Below are positions 182-62,400 of a DNA stretch of 64,000 bases, piece by piece (position 1 is the stretch's first letter; the number at the start of each line of letters is the position of its first letter). The stretch comes from Psococerastis gibbosa (lineage: Eukaryota > Arthropoda > Insecta > Psocodea > Psocidae): positions 25,817,464-25,881,463 of the forward strand of contig OZ020490.1 in NCBI GenBank assembly GCA_963971405.1. Reading direction: 5' to 3'. Under the pieces are notes generated by a model. The model made no database searches. It saw only the letters and a list, made by a program, of their open reading frames with translations, and was not told where the DNA came from. The position numbers and the translations under genes are program-made.

Positions 182-321
182 GACGCTTTTTCCACCAACG
201 TCAATAGTGATAGTAAATGTAGTATTGACGTGGTAGCAGGCATTTTTAGACTGTCTTTAATGTCTGCTACCACGTCAATACTACATTTACTATCACTATT
301 GACGTTGATGGAATAGGAGCC
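182..321. mobile_element. Hairpin MITE nested in the hAT element
   Basis: 140-bp near-perfect palindrome with the shared core GACGTGGTAGCAGGCAT and its complement. TTA flanks both sides (179-181, 322-324). Confidence 0.85.
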
Positions 322-529
322 TTATATATCATTTTTTTCATTTTTGAACACCAAGGATGTTACAAATTAAACTGGATTTAAGTTTGTTTTCATGTAGTAT
401 GCTAAGCATAGGCGGATTTTTCATATTTATGAGAGTATCGACTGCTGTACGTCACCATGCCTACTTCACCAGTTTTCTACATATAACTGGAGACTTTCTA
501 TTTTTGACATCTAATTAATTATATTGCAG

Positions 530-56400: not shown

Positions 56401-59400
56401 AGGCACATCAAACAATTTATTGGCGGATAATGGACAAGATGAGACAAGCTTACCATTGACGCAATGAAACAAGCGAAAGTATGACTTAACCAAGTACAGA
56501 TGCGAGTCATAATCATAACAATGAAGTTCAGAAAAGGAAAAGTTCAGAAAAGGAAAAGAGAACGCTGCCCTGTATATACAATACAACGTCATAAGTGCCA
56601 GGAGACATAAAATGAGTATTGACGTAGTTTTAGGCTATGAATTTTAGAGAGTCTGTGACCATAATACAAAGCTAAGCATTGAGGGAGTAGAGAGCTTTGA
56701 AAATACGGTCGTCATAAATTAGCAAGGAATTGTGAATTTTAAATGGGAGTTTGGTAAGCATAGAGGGAGGCATTGGTGTTGATCGGGTTGTTGACACTGA
56801 CGCTCTTTTTATAATATATTTTTGCTCTGTTGCCAGTGTCCTCGAGTCGAAAATAAAAATAAATATTCTGCTGCATGAATTTTTTAATTTCTTTCACGCT
56901 AAGAACTAATAATAGAATTTAGCAAACTCACAGCGTCTCTGCTAAATGAGCTTGTTTAAAAAGGAAGAAACTGGCCTCCCCGCCAGTGAAATATGAAATA
57001 GTGAGGGTCGACCCTGGGGTCTGCTGTTGAATGCCAGAGTTCCCAGAATGCTGCCCCCTCCCGAAAATAGGAAGTGGACGATACCTATGGTGTATTTGTA
57101 ATATTGTAATTTGCCATGAGAATTTTATTATATAACATTTACATTAGATTTATTGCTATCAAAAGGTAGAAGTATTGAAGTAGTAAAGTCTAATTGCGAA
57201 CAACCATAAATGTGTACATGGTAGACATTGAATGCTTTGATTGCTGAGTGCGTTCCACTATCCAATCAAAATCCTCTTATGCGCAGCGTAATAACATTGT
57301 AATTAAAATAGGAAAGACCAAAACATACCTGCGCATGCTCGGAGCAGTAAACAGCAGGAAGAAGTTGCATCATGGCGACAACCACACCGGAGTGAACAAC
57401 GACAACATCTGGCGTGGGCGGCGTGAGATTCAGTGTAGCCACCTGGCTGCGGCGTCCCGAACCAGGCGATTCCAACGACAGCTGTGTGGAGGTGTGGCGG
57501 CGGTGCGAAGGTGACTTAAAGGAGACCAGGCCGGATGGGTGGCGTTCGTACGCGTCGAGTGCCATGTCGTACATCAGTCGGAGAACTACACATTGGTAGG
57601 CAATGCGGAGAGGAATGTTGTTTGGAATGCTACAAAGTGCGAAATAAAGAGTTACAGTAGAATAGAATAGAATAGTATATCTCTGTATCATTGAATAAAT
57701 ATTTACTTTGCTCTGTATTGAGTCATAACATGAAAGAATAGGGGTTCTAAGACACAATAACAATAAATAAATGAAACACTTCAAAATAGCTAAAGCAATA
57801 TCTTCACTGAGAATCATGAGAAGAACACCGGCTGTCTAGTTCCACATCATGTCCTCCACATAAATAAAAGCATTGGTCTATGAGGTCCCTCTTTAGTTTA
57901 CTTCTAAAAGTTGTCATTTCTTCCACCTCTCAAATGTTCCTAGGCAGCCCTTGTAAGTATCTAGCCCCTGCATAGGCTGGTTTACCCTCATACCTACTGG
58001 TTCTATGCATAGGGATCACGAGATCACGAAATCAATGCAGAGAAGACAACCATATGTAAAGTTCGAGTTAAAGGTCGCCATGTTGAAATGTGCCTGCTAT
58101 CAGCAGCAACAGGGTCAGGAACTTCTGTTGCGGTATGGGAGTGGAGTTTAGTGAGACGGGGAAGTAACCAGACAACAAGGAGTGCTAAGGCGCTTATTCC
58201 ACCTTCGCCTATAGTGCATAGTAAATGTGGTATTGACGTGGTAGCAGACATTTTTAGACCGTCTTTAATGTCTGCTACCACGTCAATACCACATTTACTA
58301 TGCACTATTGACGTAGGTGGAATATGCGCCTAACCGCCAACTTCATACTGCCGAAACAAGTAACGGAAATTGTTCACATTGAAATAAAGCATATGATTAT
58401 CTATAGCCGCGCCTTCGCAGGAATGACAAGAATGGCATAAGAAAACAAGGAATGAAATATTCATATTAAAAAATCATTACATTCCGTTTCCAAAAATGTA
58501 AAAATGTAGACTACCTTGGCTCCAGAATGTTTGAAGTAAATGTGCTGTGTATAGCGGCATCTTCTTTGGCTGATATTAACTCCGTACACTCGCTGAGTTT
58601 GTCTTCGGAAGTGAAACAGCCTAAAAGTCGCAGAGTGTCGACCAACCCTTGGGCACGAATCTAAAAGTAAATGCATTAATAGCGTATACATACAATACAA
58701 GCGGGGCAAGGAGGCTAGGAGCCTGTAATAACAACCTCAGTCCTCAAACAATAAGAGTGGGATCGGCTACTTCAAGGTCAGCCTCACTGAATTTTTAAAA
58801 AAACTAATAAGGCGCTTATTCCACCTACGTCAATAGTCAATAGTAAATGTGGTATTGACGTGATAGCAGACATTAAAGACAGTCTAAAAATGTGGTATTG
58901 ACGTGGTACCAGACATTAAAGACAGTCTAAAAATGTCTGCTACCACGTCAATACCACATTTACTATTGACGTAGGTGGAGTAAGCGCCTAACCTGCAACA
59001 CAGACTCTAGAAAACTCTCTTGGCTTAGGCGCGAAAATTTAAATATACTTTTTAATATAATAATTAATGTAATTTACAGAACGCGTGTTATTTAATCAAT
59101 TGCATGAATTTGTTTCACAAATTATGCATTTTAATACCTACCAGAGCATTTACAAGGAAATACTGATTTATATAAAAATTTTGCTCTTTTATTTTATGGA
59201 ATTACTCATATTATCTATCTCGGTACCTATTCTGAGTAATAAATAGGAAAGCAGGTATGGGTTCGCTCGTACCAGTTCTTTACAATGGTACTAGTCGCTG
59301 ATAGTTCGCTTATGGTTAACGGCGACTTCTAGTAAAGTCTATTTCTTTGCGTGAGAGAAAGATGGAAGGAGAAGGCTTGTGGAAACGGCACAGACTTTAC

Positions 59401-62400
59401 AAGGGTCGGACTGCCAATGCATATGGTCGTAAACTCGTAATACTGCTATTTTTTAGGCGCGGTTTCCACCGACCTCCAAGTGCAAAATACACATATGGTG
59501 ACGTGGTAGCAGATATCATTATAAGTCCACCGACCTCTCATTGCAGAATGCAAATGACATTGACGGAAATTTGAATTTTTCTTTTTATAGAAATCTATTA
59601 AAATATTTGTTCTTAACATATCCCATGAAGCAATTTTTTAATTTTAGTTTGTGATTTTACTCTATAATCATTGATCAATTTTAACTATGGCATAGAGTAA
59701 AACAAAAATTTCCGTCAATGTCATTTGCATTCTGCAATGAGAGGTCTGTGGAAACCCCGCCTTTATTAATGATATCTGCTACCACGTCACCGTATGTGTA
59801 TTTTGCACTTCGAGGTCGGTGGAAACCGACCAAAATAACAGCAATCTTACCTCTTGATGAAAAAACTTTGCGTTTGCAGGCTCAAACCGCATAGCGAGAG
59901 TCAGTGTGTTGAAAACATTGTATAGCAACGTAAATTTTTCTTGTCGCGGAATGGTGTCCCACGGTGGTTTGGGTGTCGTGTTCAGCGCTCCCTCCATACT
60001 GACAAGTACTGACATGACGTGTACAAAACCGCCTACTTTACGGAATACTGTGCGCGCACGATGGCTGTCTCGTAAACATGTCACCAAAGCCTACAAGTAA
60101 CGAAATTAAATTAGAGCTAAATAAGGAAATAAAGCCACGATAATAGTGATTAAAGATGTAATTTTTTTTTTATTAAGCGTTATAGGTGAAAAAAATTAAA
60201 TATCGCCTTCGGTGGCGAAATGGTAGCGCGATTGTATTAATGCGAGTCTCAACACACCATGCGATCGGAGACGTGTCGTAACTCAACACAGTTAATAACT
60301 AACCTCAAAGTATCTATTGTCGGCCAAAGTAAGTTTGCCATGGTTACTATGTACGATTGTAAAAAAAAAAAGTGATAAACGGCTATATACTATTTGCGAA
60401 CAACTAAAAAAACTATATTCACCTGTAGTATATGTGTCTTAAGCAGCGTCTCTTTTGGTGGCGCTTCAAACATCATGCCCAGCAGTGTTGCCATATCGTC
60501 ATCAGCGCCGGAGCACAGAATTAGTTCTCTGACAATGCCAAGCGCTTGTGCACGGACCTGCAGGTACGGCACAAGGTTGTGGGCGCACCGCGCACCCCCA
60601 CACTCTCGGAATACCCCCGCGTTGTTGCTATTTCCGTTCAGTAGCGTTGTAAGCGCGTCCATTGTCAATCGGCCCAGTTTGTCGTTGATTTCCGGTATTG
60701 AGTATTCTAAAATCGAAAATACTGGTTAAGAAGCCGGGGAATACAATTATATAACTGTATTTGCTAGTTGTTTTAACATTACGGCGTACGGTACTATTTG
60801 AGTTCTTTTAAATTTAAATTATTTTAAATTTCAGACAGATTCAAACTTTGTCCTACAGAGTACATGTCCGTAAGAGCAAACCTTGCAATCCTGAAGGGAT
60901 GTCATTGATGGAATACGTCCAAGAAGTGCTCTGAAGTCCTGGTTGGTTCAAGAAGACGTGGCAGTGGCAAATTTAAGAAAAAAAAATAATTGGCGGGAGC
61001 GGAGCAAATGTCCATTCTTTCCTATATGATATAACTCTAGATAGGTCGAAAAAAATAACTAGGAACTTAATAAAGAACCGGTCCGAGTTTACTCGAACAT
61101 GCTTTCCAATTTATCAATTAGTAGATAAAAAAAATGGGTAATTTCATGGTAAATAATGTTCCTATGGTTAAATTTCAGGTAAATTCAAAGATTCAAGTAA
61201 ATTCAAGATAGGTCAGACCAATACATTACCACACAGTAATAATGGCAGGGCATGCAATGCATTTGAGCGTGAATTTTCTATCATTATTTCAAAAAAATAA
61301 TTTTTTGCACAAAACCAAATACTTTTTTGGGAAAGCAACCTGTCCGGTTTCTTTACTCAATTTAACATCTAGAACATGCTTGCAGGTAGAAATCATCGAT
61401 AGAAAGGTTTCGCAGAAACATTATTTTTTAGTTATTTTTATTTTTTTTTACCCCCAGAAGCAACCTATCAAGGGGCAAGCGACCCCCCGCATTTTATTAA
61501 CATTAATAAGGGCTACAATATATGTGAATTTTAAAGAAATCGTTAAAGCCGTTTTGGAGATATAATTTTTTTAGACGTTTTTTTGGAAAAAATAAAAAAA
61601 TCCTCTCGAGGTATGATTATTGTGAACCTACATGCTAAATTTCATCAAAATCGACAGAGTAGTTTGCCTGGAAATCGATGAACAGACAGACAGACCGACA
61701 GGCAGACAGACATTTCATAAAAAACACTTTTTTGGGTTCCTGGGACCTCAGAACGTGTAAATCCGTTGAAATCTCGGAATCGAAAATTTCGCCCATCACA
61801 ATGCTTTCCTTATACTACGTATAAATTGGAAAGCAATAATAGTTTAAGTATATAGAACGCAAGAATACATGCTTAGAATTGTGGATAACACAGTATAAGT
61901 TATATCAATGTTGTAAAATTCGTAAAGCCTTTTTCTTCTTCTTCAGCCAACGCCCGTCCTTGGCTGGTAGGCCATTTGACGCCGTGACGCATAGTAGAGC
62001 AGGGCCAATCCCTCCTGTGTCTAAGTTCAGTTTTCTACCTCAATGCCAGTGCAGCTGAATAGGTGTTCGGCCTTCCCCTCCCCTTGGAAGCAGAGGGGGC
62101 ATATTTCGTAAAGAAAAAAATGCAATAGGCTAAGTTTCCCTTTAAAGTTTTGTTCGAAGAGCAGAATTAAATATTTCAACCCACAATGTCTTACTTTTCT
62201 GAACAGTTGGGAATGAACGCTACAATACAAAACTTACCTTTTCCTTCGTCATGAGCTTGCTTTTTTTCCTTTAGCAGTGCCGCAAACCTTTGCAAACACG
62301 TAACTAAAACTTCCAACAGACCTACTTCCCGATAAACGTCTTTAAATACTGTATTATGCCTGAAAAATAAGTCAATTAGTTAAATGAGCTTGTCTCAGCT

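Follow-up and report, generated by a model that had tools for sequence, protein, structure and literature searches.

The Locus and Its Hairpin Family

The window analyzed here, a stretch of 64,000 nucleotides of the psocid Psococerastis gibbosa (assembly GCA_963971405.1, contig OZ020490.1, positions 25,817,464 to 25,881,463), contains a BEACH-domain gene and a family of hairpin-shaped miniature inverted-repeat transposable elements (MITEs). Among the 10 open reading frames scanned for domains, four frames of the minus strand at 20.9–60.1 kb of the window match WD40, BEACH, PH_BEACH and Arm_4 above the cut-off; we take these frames together as a gene of the WDFY3/ALFY type. At 49.6 kb LamG also matches, but below its own cut-off. 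The hairpin copies at 29.3–59.8 kb lie inside the span of this one gene, as set by the domain frames and not by exons, and the element at 182–321 is the sole copy of the window outside the span. An earlier description made from the letters alone (the sequence-only reading) had proposed about 20 hairpin MITEs with constant tips and core and unrelated, exchangeable arms, all but one of them in introns of a single gene. About 20 copies were indeed counted, namely 18 with both ends set and two partial ones (38446 and 55608–55954), and the placement in a single gene holds at the level of the gene span. Among the 18, a core match is lacking in the element at 31690–32095, whose tip is related, and the one at 59456 has a damaged right end.

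From outside to inside, a half-element consists of a 15-bp tip (GGCGNNNNTTCCACC), an arm of 28–31 bp and a 17-bp core (GACGTGGTAGCAGACAT), followed inward by a short loop of ~15 bp or by a longer insert. With up to three mismatches the core has 34 matches in the window, against 0.12 expected from 100 shuffles, the largest of which gave 1. The sequence-only reading would have been undermined by a core lacking in genomic copies, but the exact core is present 26,272 times in the 409-Mb genome (reversed control, 0). With 18 exact cores by our own count, as compared with ~4 expected per 64 kb at the genome average, the window is a dense patch. Exact TTCCACC together with an exact core, at a permitted distance of 14–44 bp, gave 13,058 genome matches and none in the control. 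In the 100 of these copies that were listed with their letters, all within the first 5.2 Mb of one contig, the gap between tip and core is 29 bp in 82, 28 bp in five, 30 bp in six, 31 bp in four and another length in three, so that 97 of 100 fall within 28–31 bp.

The hairpins are also found when the core is left out of the search. Tips alone (TTCCACC and GGTGGAA, 90–120 bp apart) were found at 2,371 sites, compared with 46 in the control, and among six such sites read as letters (80 a strand) simple hairpins with a core within two mismatches account for four, the other two being overlapping parts of one composite element. A motif-blind search for inverted repeats yielded 19 within-element hairpins by reading among the 25 longest of 55 pairs, and 17 of the 19 carry the tip. 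The exceptions, at 5601–6329 and 40360–40541, are further inverted-repeat elements in which neither tip nor core was found. Folded as single-stranded DNA, three simple hairpins gave z-scores of −20.8, −22.5 and −19.8. Relatives with tip and core, sought with the 29-bp gap only, numbered 0 in bacterial and archaeal genome contigs, and relatives in viral contigs likewise 0.

Target Sites

TTA or TAA stands before 3,087 of 3,932 exact type-1 ends (78.5%), and perfect 3-bp target-site duplications (TSDs) are present at 12 of the 18 window elements with both ends set (5 TTA, 5 TAA and 2 TTT), the remaining six being unmatched; these are the targets named by the sequence-only reading, including the two TTT. 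The element nested at 43471–43854 has TTA on both sides, and in the opposite arm of its host (43440–44226) the site is still intact, with a single TTA. At most of their ends the window copies start with GGCG or GGTG. TTA or TAA is the standard target of PIF/Harbinger elements, which generate a 3-bp duplication and have G/C-rich ends starting with GG, and Mutator and foldback elements duplicate 8–10 bp of their target. No 8-bp direct repeat is present in the printed 8-bp flanks of the 18 window elements, 12 of which show the exact 3-bp repeat. PIF/Harbinger-type insertion is supported, and the sequence-only assignment to a PIF/Harbinger-type system accords with the targets, the length of the duplications and the very high copy number of what tip and core mark as a single family.

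The Composite Form

The commonest form of the family is absent from the sequence-only description. In this composite the loop holds an inner element with its own tips, in which the arm GACCTCGCATTGCAGAATGCAAATGACATT is followed by GACGGAAAT where the core would be. The exact junction of core, loop and inner tip was found at 13,206 places, that is, half as often as the exact core. In front of the inner tip and arm stands CTWA (W, A or T) in 8,562 cases and TWA after a base other than C in 263, so that the inner element seldom occurs elsewhere; this division overlooks the inner tips of type-8 copies, which have AAA before them, and single insertions that happen to follow C. The junctions of the composite are inverted (GACTTA|...|TAAGTC, and AAA|...|TTT in type-8 copies) and show no direct duplication, and therefore either the target was a palindrome or both sides were later made symmetrical. 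An empty-loop ancestor was sought and is not established as the origin of the composite: a type-1 loop with up to 12 bp at its centre has a single exact site in the genome, with a 6-bp centre (C3:7625959–7625990), and no exact genome site has the TTATAA centre that clean excision of the inner element would leave. The single site may represent either an ancestor or an excision product of the composite.

Arm types 7, 1d and 8 share the junction of type 1 (e.g. C1:2658348, C1:2194877 and C1:4094185). This bears on the possibility that each arm type is a separately born MITE of a different autonomous element, the parents having tip and core binding sites in common and the arms corresponding to the terminal repeat of each parent. 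Such independent births would explain matched arms without any conversion, and would suit arm types 9, 11, 12 and 2c, which stand apart from the others (see below). The identical junction of types 1, 1d, 7 and 8 suggests instead that their arms diverged after one founding event, and we consider independent births unlikely.

Divergence of the Arms

The two arms of an element resemble each other far more than they resemble the arms of other elements. For 41 left/right pairs the own-pair score was 0.901, compared with 0.424 after permutation (maximum of 2,000 permutations, 0.607). The pairs comprise 24 from the 100 listed copies, in which both arms have exact TTCCACC and core, and 17 window and locus copies in which both arms could be read; outside the set are the window copies at 29311, 31690, 38446, 43440 (interrupted), 49894, 53920, 55608 (mosaic), 58811 and 59456, and the locus copies L002, L004, L009/L039, L040, L053 and the first of L063. 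Own arms also outmatch permuted ones within type 1 (n = 29, P 0.0004), since changes such as ATTTAC to AAATAC or ATTTCC stand on both sides, as judged by eye. Within subfamily 1a (n = 19) no own-arm excess is present (P 0.62), and ongoing correction of the arms in resident copies, considered as a source of the match, is accordingly not seen. The two results together indicate that the arms change jointly at the founding of a subfamily and decay separately later.

In 23 type-1 halves pairwise divergence amounts to 0.101 for the arm, 0.053 for the core and 0.025 for the loop, and in 10 halves of subfamily 1a to 0.057 for TTCCACC, 0.060 for the arm, 0.044 for the core and 0.040 for the loop, an evenness that leaves little sign of selection on resident copies. 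The recent activity proposed by the sequence-only reading can be expressed in relative terms only, as the ~5% by which half-elements of 1a differ.

For a comparison of the 17 arm types, five bases beside the tip and three beside the core were trimmed off. The groups had been set by eye before the test, namely G1 (1a, 1c, 1d, 8, 7 and inner), G2, G5 (5, 6 and 6b) and G3 (3, 4 and 10b), and the test used 2,000 shuffles and the best pair of each comparison. The links between {1a, 1c, 1d, 8} and {7, inner}, between G1 and G2, between G2 and G5 and between G5 and G3 each reached P 0.0005–0.001 on the trimmed arms, and because all four are significant, 13 of the 17 types belong to a single chain. 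A second set consists of types 9, 11 and 12, linked to one another (P 0.0017 for 9–11 and for 11–12), and 2c is on its own. Most arm types appear unrelated only if the ends of the chain are compared, and four of the 17 appear unrelated by the test as well. Divergence of the outer half of the arms goes along with that of the inner half, with a Mantel r of 0.66 (P 0.0002) for 14 untrimmed types, 2c, 11 and 12 being omitted. For trimmed arms r was 0.52 (P 0.0002) with all 17 types and 0.37 (P 0.003) with 13 less redundant ones, the range over all trimmed runs being 0.37–0.60 (P 0.0002–0.0032).

When arm types were assigned as labels to 25 core pairs, among them those at window positions 53976, 55608, 58857 and 59500 and at L002, L039, L040, L053 and both of L063, the two arms bore the same label in 20. 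The five others are the mosaic at 55608–55954 (1a/8), L007 (1a/1b), L063 (3b/3), the truncated L053 and the degenerate L040; L007 and L063 combine near sub-variants, leaving one clear mosaic among the 25. The pairs at 53976, L039 and the first of L063 are labelled alike yet have low own scores (16, 9 and 9), since one arm is longer.

These data also bear on arm exchange, in which recombination or conversion would swap arms between elements with tips and core as a shared anchor. Joint divergence of the arm halves, the intermediates that join 13 of 17 types and the predominance of equal labels all argue against it as the general process, for which we regard it as quite improbable. The mosaic, 1a on the left and type 8 on the right, is the kind of product that exchange would generate, although it has no left tip, and the separate position of types 9, 11, 12 and 2c is also in its favor. 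Furthermore, the distal 21 nt of the outer type-7 arms are identical to the inner-element arms of the type-8 copies at 38517, 59526 and 59761 and have one difference from that at 55883, a pattern that fits conversion from inner to outer tip. Arm exchange is retained as a minor process, and as an account of the four arm types that lack a link to the chain; to this extent, and in the one mosaic, the unrelated and exchangeable arms of the sequence-only reading stand, but they are not supported for the 13 chained types or the 20 equally labelled pairs.

Harbinger Transposases in the Genome

A genome search with PF13359, the Harbinger transposase domain, gave 150 scored matches among 220 candidates, so that at least 150 are present. 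The surroundings of 20 representatives were analyzed, consisting of families A–D and 16 loci (L049–L064, some of them mutually related), the latter with ~2.5 kb a side. Families B and D and loci L049–L064 have no pair of tip and core at the scale of an element, and all core matches in the representatives belong to hairpin copies. These lie inside families A and C and in L053 and L063; at the latter two loci the hairpins, whole or cut, are separated from the transposase match by more than 2 kb.

Families A and C presumably are ISL2EU-type Harbinger elements whose second frame is presumably YqaJ-like. Of the 21 copies of family A, 20 have the hairpin at one and the same site, flanked by TTA left and right and followed by further conserved sequence of the element, and for this reason it was rejected as the true end of this family. 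In family C the hairpin, here flanked by TAT left and right, is present in each of the two copies that span the site, which are 99.9% identical, and the ends of the family itself are ATGGGGTATACAGG. The hairpins in both families are read as passengers. One copy of family A, L029 (reverse complement), stops, at CCATAACTTTA, exactly at the left boundary that the hairpin has in the other 20 copies, and continues with other DNA; this break might reflect a faulty cut at the hairpin tip, but a single case proves little. At L039, positions 1–4645 hold two head-to-head copies of family A (1–2306 and 2330–4645) as an inverted repeat of ~98% identity.

A Proposed Two-Part Site as Explanation

We interpret the family as non-autonomous PIF/Harbinger-type hairpin MITEs with near-fixed tip–core ends and co-diverging arms that move by means of a two-part site, and assign this interpretation a probability of about 0.65. 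Each half-element is one long terminal inverted repeat composed of the tip, a spacer of ~29 bp (the arm) and the core, and the centre is filled by a short loop or by another, inserted MITE. Tip and core would be read as the two parts of one site by a transposase, perhaps aided by a DNA-binding protein, and a source copy would therefore have to keep both, while the spacer would be free to drift. A new subfamily would start from a source whose arms had been made alike again by copying one end onto the other, and after insertion its copies would decay neutrally, so that the constancy across arm types would stem from which copies can act as sources. For the copying step we tentatively suggest, as a possibility in which we place limited confidence, that the palindromic arms are re-copied from each other at each birth of a subfamily, by hairpin-templated repair or a replicative hairpin intermediate, which would keep the tip and core end while the spacer drifts symmetrically, the second tips of the composite serving as donor or alternative ends. 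The family is large and real, and ordinary in kind with some unusual regularities.

Several observations weigh against the two-part site. Common descent alone also yields constant spacing, without any binding geometry. Types 9, 11 and 12 are unlinked to the chain (P 0.27), and so is 2c (P 0.27), which makes four of the 17 types, and the mosaic at 55608–55954 shows that arms can recombine. In the 23 type-1 halves TTCCACC diverges by 0.147 and the four preceding bases by 0.310, both above the arm, so that type 1 has a tip at least as variable as its arm, in part because of a TTCCATT subfamily; the tip is less constant than the sequence-only reading had described it. Finally, a transposase flanked by these ends, as that reading had envisaged (GGCG...TTCCACC), was not found in the 20 Harbinger representatives. 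The partner may have been missed, since the survey covered part of the PF13359 lineages and ~2.5 kb a side at 16 loci, and it could still exist or be extinct. Taken together, the observation behind the sequence-only reading is confirmed and its interpretation partly supported.

The absence of such ends among the 20 representatives would also be expected if the tips came from another superfamily with 3-bp duplications, for example Zator, the likeness to Harbinger being superficial. This is improbable given the TTA/TAA duplication, which is the standard PIF/Harbinger target, and the number of Harbinger transposases in the genome. Zator was the only other superfamily searched, and PF07592 gave 0 genome matches, a weak argument because the control genomes gave none either.

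If the two-part site is true, the family would serve as a natural experiment on the features that a Harbinger-type transposase has to recognize, with thousands of copies in which the spacing is nearly constant and the spacer free. One could then also test how a palindromic element can change and still keep its two arms alike, and whether nested tips within one MITE help a family to swap ends.

Relation to Known Systems

By target and ends the nearest kind, to our knowledge, are the Tourist-type Harbinger MITEs such as mPing and its kin, which are likewise short and non-autonomous and insert into TTA or TAA with a 3-bp duplication. Tourist-like MITEs are mobilized by a transposase together with an ORF1 (Myb-like) protein. 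In contrast to these elements, the present family has a core at a near-fixed distance from the tip, co-diverging arms, a composite with inner tips and tens of thousands of core copies, and an autonomous partner was not found in the 20 representatives. Families A and C, in the same genome, encode a DDE_Tnp_4 transposase and carry the hairpin, which is internal and has flanks of its own (TTA in A, TAT in C), family C having its own ends.

The consulted sections of the literature report that internal bases of mPing, besides the terminal ones, affect its mobility (PMC9921582), and that the CMITEs of Acropora corals have differing terminal repeats combined with a common terminal motif and internal region, which may, according to their authors, suffice for mobilization by various transposases (PMC2872659). 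The likeness to CMITEs is one of design, as both are built from a constant end motif, a constant interior and differing terminal repeats. As described in those sections, CMITEs duplicate TTAA, carry the piggyBac-type end motif CC[C/T]T, share 75 conserved interior bases and number, by estimate, 1,600 in A. millepora (PMC2872659), whereas the hairpins have 3-bp TWA duplications, GGCG ends, a core present as an inverted pair and the far larger number of exact cores given above. Owing to its TTAA targets and piggyBac-type ends, the CMITE is not the same as this hairpin family. A near-fixed tip–core spacing, stepwise co-divergence of arms and a dominant composite with second tips are not described in the consulted sections on mPing and CMITEs (PMC9921582; PMC2872659), and literature searches, including searches with the motif strings, found no description of this hairpin family.

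Elements and Other Features of the Window

TABLE 1. Elements of the hairpin family in the window.
Element	Positions	Strand	TSD	Remarks
Simple hairpin, arm type AACGTCAATAGTGATAG...	182–321		TTA	Core, inverted-repeat and folding evidence; outside BEACH gene span
Longer hairpin, arm type GGCGAATTTACTTG...	29311–29580		TAA	Single degenerate core at 29449–29465
Related tip-bearing element	31690–32095		No match	No core match
Simple hairpin, arm GACGTGCATTTTCAATG...	33374–33510		Non-matching	Core, inverted-repeat and folding evidence
Composite, type 1 outside, tip-bearing inner element in loop	37230–37613		TTA
Partial composite, left half, type 8 arm	38446–38560	+		Right border not set
Composite, type 1b arms	38990–39384		TTT
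Composite, type 1c arms	39897–40291		TTA
Hairpin with longer loop, arm GACGTCGTTTTTCATTG...	41428–41640		TTA
Element, arm type GACCTAGTTTGTGTTAGC...	43440–44226		TTT	Left arm interrupted by 43471–43854
Composite nested in left arm of 43440–44226	43471–43854		TTA
Hairpin with longer loop, arm group of 41428	44766–44971		TAA	One core lost
Outer-left end plus inner-right end	49894–50217		TAA both sides	Mixed-end use or deletion between tips
Composite, type 1a	50678–51061		Non-matching
Hairpin, arm TACGTCAATCGTC...	53920–54070		No direct repeat	Flanks TAA and TTA
Composite, type 1a	54497–54880		Non-matching
Mosaic composite (55608–55954)	55590–55954			Left arm 1a truncated, without left tip; right arm type 8
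Simple hairpin, arm TACGTCAATAGTGCATAG...	58189–58330		TAA	Folding evidence
Hairpin, arm group of 58189	58811–58988		TAA	Internal duplication
Composite, type 8 arms	59456–59828			Right tip damaged; right border uncertain

Transposition with mixed ends cannot be proven for the element at 49894–50217, because a deletion between the inner and the outer tip, both of which contain CGCCTAA, would leave an identical product. The centre of the element at 29311–29580 resembles, by eye, the long loops of those at 41428–41640 and 44766–44971 despite their differing arms, and interiors may therefore be common to several arm types.

Two further open frames of the window have domain matches. Inside the span of the BEACH gene, a frame of 647 amino acids at 51462–53405 has a hAT dimerization match above the cut-off and a zf-C2H2_12 match below it. 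At 12341–15313 a frame of 990 amino acids with endonuclease and reverse transcriptase domains represents an element of the long interspersed (LINE) type.

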